Positions 34,276 through 37,231 of a DNA stretch of 64,000 nt are shown here, in pieces; within the stretch, counting starts at the first letter, position 1; each line of letters starts with the position of its first letter. Source of the DNA: Candidatus Scatomonas pullistercoris (GTDB lineage: Bacteria; Bacillota; Clostridia; Lachnospirales; Lachnospiraceae); assembly GCA_018713515.1 (NCBI GenBank), contig DVOO01000011.1, positions 62,001 through 126,000 of the forward strand, in the 5' to 3' direction. The notes under the pieces were generated by a model. That model had not been told where the DNA came from, ran no database searches, and saw only the letters and a program-made list of their open reading frames with translations. The translations under genes were made by a program, and so were the position numbers.

Positions 34276-35202
34276 TTATTCAATGATGGTGCCGGTACGG
34301 CCGAGATAGCCCTCTCTGGCCTTGTCAATGGAGGTAATAACCGCGCGCTTGCCGCCTTTTTTCAGGAATGAAACGGAAGCTTCGATCTTCGGAAGCATGG
34401 TGCCGGCCTCAAACTGGCCCTGCTCCATATACTGCTCTGCCTCTGTGACTGTCAGCCGGCCCAGGGGAGTGGGATTCCCGCTCTCATAAGCCAGGGACAC
34501 ATGTTCCACGCTGGTGAGGATCAAGAGCTCATCCGCATGAAGCTTTTCGGCCAGCAGACCGCTCAGCAGATCCTTCTCGATGACGGCACTGGCACCCTTC
34601 AGAGCTTCGTTCTGCTCCAGAACCGGGATGCCGCCCCCGCCGCCGGCGATGACGATCTGGCCTGCATCCAGCATCAGCCGGATCGTATCCAGTTCAATAA
34701 TATCTACAGGTTTGGGCGCTGCCACGATTCTGCGGTACCCGCCCTCCACAGGCGTTACATAATTTCCTTTTGCCTCTTCGAGATCCGCCTCCTCGCGGTT
34801 CAGGATCCGGCCGATGATTTTGGAGGGCTGATGGAAAGCCTCATCGTAGGGGTCTACGGTAACCTGCGTAAGGACAGTGGCAACCGGTTTATAGATGCCT
34901 CTCCGCAGCAGCTCCTCCCGCAGAGCATTCTGGATATCGTATCCGATATAGCCCTGGCTCATGGCTGAGCAGACAGACATGGGTGCCACCGTATAATCGG
35001 TGTGTGCCTTCTGAAATTCGTTCATGGCCGTGTGGATCATGCCGACCTGGGGCGCATTGCTGTGCGTAATTGCAATATCAGCTCCGGCCTCCACCAGATC
35101 CGCCAGAGATTTGGCTGTCCGCTTTGCGGCGGTCTGCTGTTCCGGAAGCGTATTGCCTAAAGCCCGGTGTCCCAAGGCCACAACTATCTTTTTTCTCTGC
35201 AT
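34276..35202 (-). CDS. arcC: Carbamate kinase
   Basis: KIVVALGHRALGNTLPEQ..., ITHSNAPQVGM, VIAGGGGGIPV; start at MQRKKIVVALG. Confidence 0.93.
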   Translation of the reverse strand: MQRKKIVVALGHRALGNTLPEQQTAAKRTAKSLADLVEAGADIAITHSNAPQVGMIHTAMNEFQKAHTDYTVAPMSVCSAMSQGYIGYDIQNALREELLRRGIYKPVATVLTQVTVDPYDEAFHQPSKIIGRILNREEADLEEAKGNYVTPVEGGYRRIVAAPKPVDIIELDTIRLMLDAGQIVIAGGGGGIPVLEQNEALKGASAVIEKDLLSGLLAEKLHADELLILTSVEHVSLAYESGNPTPLGRLTVTEAEQYMEQGQFEAGTMLPKIEASVSFLKKGGKRAVITSIDKAREGYLGRTGTIIE

Positions 35203-35294
35203 GGAAATATTCCTTTCTTCCATTATTTGATATTTCCCATTATAAGTTCTCAGGAGGGAAAAAGCAAGTCCGTGCAGAAGATGAGTAACCAGAT

Positions 35295-35368
35295 AAAAAA
35301 CAGCGGCCCGCTTCCGGGCCGCTGCTTTTAATGAGGGGGGAGATAGTGAGTGGTTAATCAACTATCCG
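35295..35368 (-). ncRNA. Candidate small RNA, copy 1 (about 74 nt)
   Basis: Minus-strand TATAAT (35375-35380), 5' hairpin GATAGT/ACTATC, C-rich TCTCCCCCCTC, terminator CAGCGGCCCG-gaag-CGGGCCGCTG-TTTTTT. Confidence 0.6.
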
Positions 35369-35382
35369 AGATTTATTATAGG
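35328..35382. repeat. 55-bp direct repeat, copy 1
   Basis: ttaatgaggggggagatagtgagtggttaatcaactatccgagatttattatagg, identical to 35526-35580. Confidence 0.97.
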
Positions 35383-35459
35383 AAAAAAATGTGTTCAAAA
35401 TATGACCACATTCTAAAAGAATTTTAAATTTCATAAAGAAAAGGTGAAGGAATGAGCCG

Positions 35460-35566
35460 GAGAAAAAGAAAGAGCACCGTAAAATGGTTCGCTAAAACGC
35501 CGTCCATTTTATCAGTGCCCATTTCTTAATGAGGGGGGAGATAGTGAGTGGTTAATCAACTATCCG
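35460..35566 (-). ncRNA. Candidate small RNA, copy 2 (about 107 nt)
   Basis: Minus-strand TATAAT (35573-35578), same 5' domain, different terminator GGGCAC..TAAAATGG/CCATTTTA..GTGCTC-TTTCTTTTTC. Confidence 0.6.
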
Positions 35567-35580
35567 AGATTTATTATAGG
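35526..35580. repeat. 55-bp direct repeat, copy 2
   Basis: Identical to 35328-35382; imperfect similarity continues about 65 bp to the right in both copies. Confidence 0.97.
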
Positions 35581-35746
35581 GACAATATGTGTTCAAAGTA
35601 TGTCCGGAATATGAAAGAATTCTGAAATTCCTTAAGAAAAGGTAAAAACCGGCGTTTTTTGCGGACGAAGGGAACCAAGTGTGCGTTGAAAACTGCCCTC
35701 CGGTATGGTATGCTAATACTTGCACGGTATCATGAAGGAGAAGTCT

Positions 35747-37231
35747 ATGCTGTTATCATCATTACTTGAGGATTTGCAGTATACGTGTCTGAATGGAAGT
35801 ACGGATGTGGAGATAAAGGGGGTGGCCTATGATTCCAGAAATGTGGAACCGGGCTCTCTTTTTGTTTGTATCCGGGGAACCGCAAGAGACGGCGGCGCCT
35901 ATGCGGAGGAAGCTGTGAAAAAGGGAGCCGCCGCATTGGTGGCGGAGAAACCGGTGAAGATGCCGGGCAGCGTTCCCTGTATCCAGGTGGCGAACGCGCG
36001 CAGCGCGCTGGCGCACATAGCGGCAGCCTGGTTCGGCCATCCGGCCCGGCGGCTGATAACCATCGGGATAACAGGGACAAAGGGAAAAACAACCACAGCC
36101 CATATGATCCGGGAGATTCTGGAGGGGGCGGGCTGGAGGACGGGGATGCTGGGGACGGTCAGCCACATGACCGGGAAACGGACATTCCCCGCGGAGAATA
36201 CAACGCCTGAATCCTATCTTGTGCAGAAATATCTGGCAGAGATGGTGGAGGCGGGGCTGCAGTGTGCAGTCATGGAGGTTTCCTCCCAGGCTCTGAAGCA
36301 GAGCCGGGTGGAGGGGATACAATTTGATTACGGAGTATTTACCAATATTGAACCGGATCACATTGCCCCGGGCGAGCATGCGGATTTTACAGAATATCTG
36401 GAGTGCAAAAAGAAACTGTTCAGGCAGTGCCGGGTGGGAATTGCCAACCGGGATGACCGGCATTTTGAGGAATTTACAGGGGGACGGACCTGTGTGCTGG
36501 AGACTTTTGGCCTCTCGGCGGAGGCAGAGCTGCGGGCGGAAAAACTGCGGCTGATATCCGGAGGAGGAAGGCTGGGAATTTCTTTTGAGACGAGCGGCCT
36601 TCTGGAATTTCAGGCGGAGCTGTCTCTGCCCGGAAGATTTTCCGTATATAATGCGCTGGCTGCCATTGCCGTCTGCCGACGTCTGGGCGTGACAAAGGCG
36701 TCCATGCGGCAGGCGCTCCGGCGCGTAAAGGTGCGGGGAAGAGTGGAGACGGTTCCTGTTTCTGAACGGTATACGCTTCTTATCGATTACGCGCACAATG
36801 CCATGAGTCTGAAGAGCCTGCTGCAGACCCTGCGGGAGTACAGGCCGGCCCGCCTGATCTGTCTATTTGGCTGCGGAGGCAACCGGGACAGGAACCGGAG
36901 ATTTGAGATGGGGGAAATTTCCGGCCAGCTGGCGGATCTGACTGTGATTACCTCGGATAATCCGCGGGATGAAGAGCCGGAGGCCATTATGGCGGATATT
37001 CGGGAAGGGATCCGGAAAACAGAAGGAAGGTACGTGGAGATCCCCGACCGGAAGGCGGCTGTGGCCTGGGCCATGGAGCAGGGAGAGCCGGGGGATATCA
37101 TTGTGCTGGCCGGGAAAGGCCATGAAGACTATCAGCTGATAAAGGGGAAAAAGTATCCCATGGATGAACGGGTCTTAGTTCGGGAAATTTTTGCTTCGCG
37201 TAAGAAATGTGCAGACTCACGGAAAAGATAG
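35747..37231 (+). CDS. murE: UDP-N-acetylmuramyl-tripeptide synthetase
   Basis: GITGTKGKTTTAHMIREIL, NTTPESYLVQKYLAEMV, DYAHNAMSL; SD AAGGAG. Confidence 0.92.
   Translation: MLLSSLLEDLQYTCLNGSTDVEIKGVAYDSRNVEPGSLFVCIRGTARDGGAYAEEAVKKGAAALVAEKPVKMPGSVPCIQVANARSALAHIAAAWFGHPARRLITIGITGTKGKTTTAHMIREILEGAGWRTGMLGTVSHMTGKRTFPAENTTPESYLVQKYLAEMVEAGLQCAVMEVSSQALKQSRVEGIQFDYGVFTNIEPDHIAPGEHADFTEYLECKKKLFRQCRVGIANRDDRHFEEFTGGRTCVLETFGLSAEAELRAEKLRLISGGGRLGISFETSGLLEFQAELSLPGRFSVYNALAAIAVCRRLGVTKASMRQALRRVKVRGRVETVPVSERYTLLIDYAHNAMSLKSLLQTLREYRPARLICLFGCGGNRDRNRRFEMGEISGQLADLTVITSDNPRDEEPEAIMADIREGIRKTEGRYVEIPDRKAAVAWAMEQGEPGDIIVLAGKGHEDYQLIKGKKYPMDERVLVREIFASRKKCADSRKR

Follow-up and report, generated by a model that had tools for sequence, protein, structure and literature searches.

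Between an arcC-like gene and murE, the stretch of Candidatus Scatomonas pullistercoris DNA analysed here (64,000 nucleotides, hereafter the window) contains a sequence that occurs twice. This raises the question whether the two copies encode small RNAs (sRNAs) and, if so, how these are controlled and what they act upon. A first-pass annotation had proposed two tandem, paralogous sRNA genes on the minus strand. The 55-bp perfect repeat on which it was based (35328-35382 and 35526-35580, offset 198) was recovered with all 55 bp the same, and the minus-strand TATAAT that it assigned to each copy is present at 35380-35375 (copy 1) and 35578-35573 (copy 2). The repeat unit is larger than was reported, namely a direct repeat of 121 bp with the same offset of 198, in which 105 of the 121 positions (87%) are identical. 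As it extends beyond the 55-bp core, the upstream promoter region is conserved too. A genome-wide search with the 55-mer returned the two window copies only, and the combined pattern of promoter and box was found at two places in the 64-kb window, which are these same copies, and not once in 100 shuffles. According to Pfam, the flanking genes are those named before, an amino-acid-kinase-family gene that reads as arcC and a Mur ligase that reads as murE (Table 1).

Table 1. Features of the repeat region and its flanking genes (window coordinates).
Feature	Position	Strand	Basis and remarks
Copy 1 promoter: half-sites phased by about 11 bp ending TCATATTTTGAACACATTT, then TATAAT; no -35	35375..35428	-	R2 match, E 3.0e-9
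Copy 1 sRNA, about 74 nt (predicted)	35295..35368	-	R1 model, 81.6 bits; fold; 5' end inferred from -10 position
Copy 1 conserved hairpin GGATAGT...ACTATCT	35341..35366	-	Homologue alignment, pair counts
Copy 1 unpaired tract UCCCCCCUCAU, proposed antisense seed	35331..35341	-	Invariant in alignment; unpaired in fold
Copy 1 intrinsic terminator CAGCGGCCCG/CGGGCCGCTG-T6	35295..35324	-	Sequence, fold
Copy 2 promoter: GGACATACTTTGAACACATAT box and -10 TATAAT	35573..35627	-	R2 match, E 5.6e-11
Copy 2 sRNA, about 104 nt (predicted)	35463..35566	-	R1 model, 81 bits; fold
Copy 2 conserved hairpin	35539..35564	-	Fold, alignment, pair counts
Copy 2 unpaired tract UCCCCCCUCAU	35529..35539	-	Fold, alignment, C-run counts
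Copy 2 intrinsic terminator GGGCAC..TAAAATGG/CCATTTTA..GTGCTC-TTTCTTTTT	35463..35521	-	Sequence, fold
arcC-like carbamate kinase gene	34276..35202	-	Downstream of copy 1; Pfam AA_kinase; neighbour not conserved in most homologues
murE, divergent neighbour	35747..37231	+	Pfam Mur_ligase domains; recurrent beside homologues

The stem GATAGT/ACTATC and the unpaired C-tract that had been described were both found in the minimum-energy fold of the two predicted transcripts, with z-scores of -5.3 and -5.8 against shuffles. Each copy ends in a strong terminator of its own that is unrelated to the other. The predicted 5' ends, at about 35368 and 35566, and the sizes of the transcripts (Table 1) agree with the first estimate. 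In each unit an activated promoter is followed by the GATAG/CTATC hairpin, then by the UCUCCCCCCUCAU tract, which is unpaired, and lastly by an intrinsic terminator that is specific to the copy. The repeat might instead encode a small peptide, such as MRGEIV... from the plus strand (which reads ATGAGGGGGGAGATAGTGAGTGGTTAA) or the product of a short open reading frame within the RNA. However, the C-run ranges from 4 to 8 nt between homologues, which shifts the frame, the loop length varies widely and the promoter lies on the opposite strand. A peptide gene is for these reasons highly improbable.

When copy 2 was compared by BLASTN with 299 genomes of the family, nearly all of them from different genera, 100 matched at E<=0.01, of which about 73 also passed E<=1e-5, and a genome was often hit twice; roughly one in every three to four of the sampled genera thus has a homologue. 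In total 163 distinct homologous sequences were collected, of which the named ones are nearly all from Lachnospiraceae and often come in 2-3 copies. A pattern scan of the GTDB species genomes gave at least 120 stretches with the pattern; among the matches listed the named records are nearly all Lachnospiraceae and include Blautia, Dorea, Mediterraneibacter, Fusicatenibacter, Eisenbergiella, Acetatifactor and others, while a single match in Mesorhizobium was taken as chance. The covariance model search of other families of the class gave no credible match, the weak hits L037-L039 being judged not real. A promoter search within the order did detect, in one further family, RNAs with a C-tract that follow the same promoter (L426, L428, L429 and L432) and contain ACUCCCUCAU or CUCUCCCCCUCAU. 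This implies that the system extends beyond the main family. Four pattern matches were obtained in viral contigs; two of them (L161, L162) are true copies of the gene, and L163 and L164 fall within coding sequence and seem to match by chance. The L161 copy adjoins an integrase-like gene and lies at a probable prophage/host junction. The number of RNA-gene copies per locus varies from one to three among homologues, with two in the window, and tandem arrays of two or three were also seen in L092 (at 5978, 6207 and 6436), L042, L093, L111 and L117.

The RNA of this family (C6 RNA) has no match in Rfam at the gathering cut-off and nothing credible at E<=10, so that the comparison proposed with the annotation did not place it in a known family. 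Our literature searches yielded no published sRNA family of the Lachnospiraceae and no description of a conserved trans-acting sRNA regulon in them. The repeat does not behave as a mobile element (IS/MITE) either, since there are only two copies in the genome, a recurrent place beside murE and a conserved promoter and terminator.

The core that stays constant across the 163 homologues reads RGATAGWTGA...CTATCTCCCCCCTCA. Among 170 copies anchored on the promoter, the run of C measures 6 nt in 110, 5 in 40 and 7 in 13, and the next pair inward from GATAG/CTATC is U-A in 141, A-U in 14 and neither in 15. Covariation of the stem, for which the annotation had suggested a search, is present in part: the innermost pair swaps between U-A and A-U and a few members have a wholly replaced stem, whereas the other pairs hardly vary. 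It is limited because most of the stem sequence is invariant. In some members the C-tract is kept behind a different stem, as in L036 (GATAGATGAAATCTATC), L057, L202 (ATCGTTAAA..TTTAACGAT) and L421 (GTAAGTAAT..ATTACTTAC). Terminators were detected in 115 of 158 homologues, against 15 of 158 shuffled sequences. Most of the 43 without a detected terminator (33) represent an extended class, TAAAGTA-hairpin-CACTTTACTCTCATTCCTTTAGATAACTATA, several members of which have a further terminator-like hairpin past the scanned stretch. An extended subclass of the C6 RNA (L018, L021, L024, L026, L032 and about 35 others) has a second conserved unpaired stretch, ACUCUCAUUCCUUUAGAUAACUAUAA, after a second hairpin.

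The genes beside the homologues bear on another explanation, according to which the element is a cis-acting attenuator or leader of a downstream gene (arcC here, murE elsewhere) that works by terminator read-through. In the window both copies do precede arcC in the same orientation, and each ends in a terminator. However, the downstream genes vary: arcC was found near 16 of 115 homologue loci only and murE beside 43 of 115, in both orientations and most often divergent. This argues that the element is not the leader of a fixed gene. Moreover, no conserved alternative antiterminator fold was seen and the terminators are unrelated in sequence, and we consider a leader very unlikely. With 163 homologues, frequent terminators, variable neighbours and no Rfam counterpart, the combination of a conserved 5' module with diverged terminators fits, as first proposed, a multicopy regulatory-RNA family.

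The most informative part was missing from the annotation, namely the conserved activated promoter and the regulon that it defines. Alignment of 161 homologue promoters on the -10 revealed no -35 element. Instead, six half-sites are present at about -68, -57, -47, -36, -24 and -13 from the -10, the first four of the type TTWA/TTAAG/TTT and the two proximal ones (-24 and -13) of the type ACAYA, ACACA. A phasing of about 11 bp is typical of binding sites for regulators of the OmpR/PhoB family. The phased half-sites together with the lack of a -35 lead one to expect an OmpR-family response regulator as activator.

A promoter model built from sequence alone (R2), which covers 56 nt ending with the -10 and contains nothing of the RNA, was used to search 40 genomes and the sites were inspected. 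In 10 genomes, including that of the window (G000:C31:84505), R2 matched ahead of genes for HtrA/DegP-type proteases; Pfam Trypsin_2 and PDZ domains were present in both such genes tested, and four more htrA genes were found behind the promoter in further genomes. R2 also found the C6 RNAs, a second and a third RNA class and one gene for an OmpR-family response regulator. The promoter of the C6 RNA is thus common to htrA genes and further sRNA genes, which points to a regulon of the two-component system (TCS) type that includes htrA. The response regulator (G000:C24:41005-41676 in the window's own genome) has orthologs in 38 of the 40 genomes with 68-77% identity, and Pfam identifies a HAMP-HisKA-HATPase histidine kinase gene downstream of it in the own genome. 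Its upstream regions also carry the site: 14 of the 20 that were readable scored above PWM -12, compared with 2.4% of 330 control genes (P=2.6e-8), the own-genome site being weak (PWM -11.9, level with its best shuffle). It is neither PhoB nor WalR (YycF) as judged by the NCBIfam equivalogs, with scores of 211.9 against a cut-off of 296.2 and 205.4 against 340, respectively. This conserved regulator with its HAMP kinase is the best candidate for the activator that would bind the promoters directly, a candidate assignment based on autoregulation and co-occurrence.

A promoter of this kind could also mean that the repeat amounts to no more than a group of binding sites for the regulator, and that the short RNA made from it is a functionless by-product. 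The promoter is indeed conserved as much as the RNA and protein genes stand under the same regulator. On the other hand, the spacer around the hairpin and C-tract is less conserved than these two elements, the stem has been preserved by compensatory changes or by replacement as a whole (the four members with a different stem mentioned above) and the terminators are largely retained. Such a by-product is in our opinion quite unlikely.

The second RNA class behind the same promoter has the arrangement hairpin-CUUUUUCAUA-hairpin-CUCCUU/CCCCC. Its motif occurs at 28 sites, several of them in the own genome (G000:C11:101874-101927, L167; G000:C24:51457, L174; G000:C26:38122, L176) and many in relatives, and it has no match in Rfam. 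The antisense of this class corresponds to a whole translation start, consisting of the Shine-Dalgarno (SD) sequence AGGAG, a spacer and (U)AUGAAAAA. Among mRNAs that start with AUGAAAAA, those for exported proteins are overrepresented 6.2-fold (P=2.7e-8), which is consistent with, and does not prove, a regulon aimed at the synthesis of exported proteins. The exact antisense 11-mer of the second class (type B), TTATGAAAAAG, gave only one convincing exported-protein start in the own genome, so that generic targeting is not evident there. The third class is longer and structured, with the motif GGCUUCGCCAAACAA at about 6-7 sites (L195, L196, L208, L216, L227, L231 and L237), and it likewise has no Rfam match. 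In L198, L210 and L419 apparent hybrids occur, UUUUCAUAUAUUU followed by CUCUCCCCUCAU, that link the first and second classes.

As for the C6 RNA itself, its unpaired UCUCCCCCCUCAU tract, placed between the 5' hairpin and the terminator, would most likely pair with G-rich SD regions. Candidate SDs exist, as 80 genes with AGGGGGGA SDs were recovered from 20 carriers and the own genome. Among the AGGGGGGA-SD genes of the 20 sRNA-bearing genomes there was no widely recurrent family, and no target emerged as conserved. V-ATPase subunits (3) and ParB (2) were too few to be accepted as recurrent targets (AGGGGGG SDs in the own genome, AGGGGGGA SDs in the 20 relatives). Membrane proteins are mildly enriched among the AGGGGGGA-SD genes (30% vs 16%, P about 0.01-0.03). 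The UCAU end of the tract would place an AUG 5' of the G-run, unlike the usual order of SD and start codon. At two sites about 1.8 kb apart (G000:C8:2938 and C8:4760; L251, L261) the start of a lipoprotein gene matches the second RNA class and the AGGGGGGA SD of an ABC ATPase gene matches the C6 RNA; this coincidence may be due to chance.

That the hairpin and C-tract are extremely conserved and no recurrent mRNA target was found would also fit an RNA that acts mainly as a decoy, titrating a protein that binds the C-tract or hairpin, and does not base-pair with mRNAs. However, unpaired C-rich tracts of Gram-positive sRNAs with known targets bind SD regions (PMC4132741) and the other RNA classes of the regulon also have CUCCU or CCCCC tracts. 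A decoy function is therefore regarded as unlikely. The two copies in the window are probably paralogous genes for trans-acting, C-rich, anti-SD sRNAs of an envelope-stress two-component regulon in Lachnospiraceae.

These RNAs can be compared with several known systems. The 6C RNA of Actinobacteria also has a run of six cytosines, but its C-runs sit in hairpin loops, whereas the run in the window RNA is unpaired and Rfam gave no match. The csRNAs of Streptococcus, which is another host group, are multicopy RNAs of about 50-200 nt with two stem-loops and an unpaired SD-complementary stretch, and their promoters have phased repeats for the OmpR-family regulator CiaR next to the -10, CiaRH also controlling htrA (PMC3091779, PMC12826053). 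They thus resemble the present family in copy number, OmpR-type phased promoter, htrA under the same regulator and, as judged from the fold, an unpaired region between two stem-loops, the C6 tract of the window being complementary to G-rich SDs. However, the csRNA nonamer [A/C]UCCUAAA[A/C] after the first stem-loop (PMC3091779) is absent from the window RNAs, which have UCCCCCCUCAU with the core UCUCCCCCCUCAU instead. The promoters also lack a CiaR repeat (NTTAAG-N5-TTTAAG) at ten bases before the -10; the proximal element here is RRACAYA-N-TTTGRACACATTT, and TTAAG-like half-sites occur only further upstream, at -68/-57. The recognition helix also differs, RTIDTHVKKLR in the candidate regulator against VVEVYVSKVRKKL in CiaR (PMC3091779). 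LhrC1-5 of Listeria are multicopy C-rich sRNAs induced by envelope stress via the TCS LisRK, for which SD pairing by UCCC sites has been shown and LisR has no defined consensus box (PMC4132741); LisRK also affects htrA (PMC12826053). They have three UCCC sites, where the present family, which matches no family in Rfam, has a single C6 tract. CssRS of Bacillus subtilis is an autoregulated TCS that activates htrA genes, as is proposed here, but no sRNA arm has been described for it (PMC12826053, which reviews the control of htrA by CiaRH, LisRK and CssRS). The analogy with csRNA and LhrC drawn in the annotation therefore stands at the level of the regulon and finds no support at that of sequence. 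Without the csRNA nonamer, the CiaR repeat, the CiaR helix or an Rfam family, the C6 RNA is a new RNA family, a variant of the csRNA/LhrC kind and not a member of it. Judged from sequence, with its paralogous copies and the htrA-regulon promoter, it would belong to the functional kind of TCS-controlled, multicopy, C-rich Gram-positive sRNAs.

As the same promoter drives htrA/degP and other sRNAs, the C6 RNAs are probably made under cell-envelope or secretion stress. Such stress would activate the kinase and the OmpR-family response regulator, which would switch on the sRNA promoters and raise the levels of HtrA and the sRNAs; pairing of these with SD regions would then lower the translation of a set of mRNAs. 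That the promoter is common with an envelope quality-control protease suggests that the sRNAs turn down protein production under cell-surface stress. More tentatively, and on balance doubtful, a single autoregulated TCS of the Lachnospiraceae might govern the response to envelope stress, with sRNAs of several unrelated classes (C6; UUUUUCAUA-hairpin-CUCCUU/CCCCC) as one of its arms. Together these classes would reduce the output of exported proteins, and HtrA would meanwhile remove those that are misfolded. If true, Gram-positive bacteria would here have an equivalent of the sigma-E/Cpx sRNA strategy. The Lachnospiraceae rank with the most abundant bacteria of the gut. This RNA family is widespread among them and its promoter box is defined, and with a candidate regulator and a co-regulated protease that is already known, these ideas are testable in cultivable commensals. 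The association of htrA with C-rich anti-SD sRNAs under one TCS, as in streptococci and Listeria, may have recurred in a third group, where both the RNA and the box are different.
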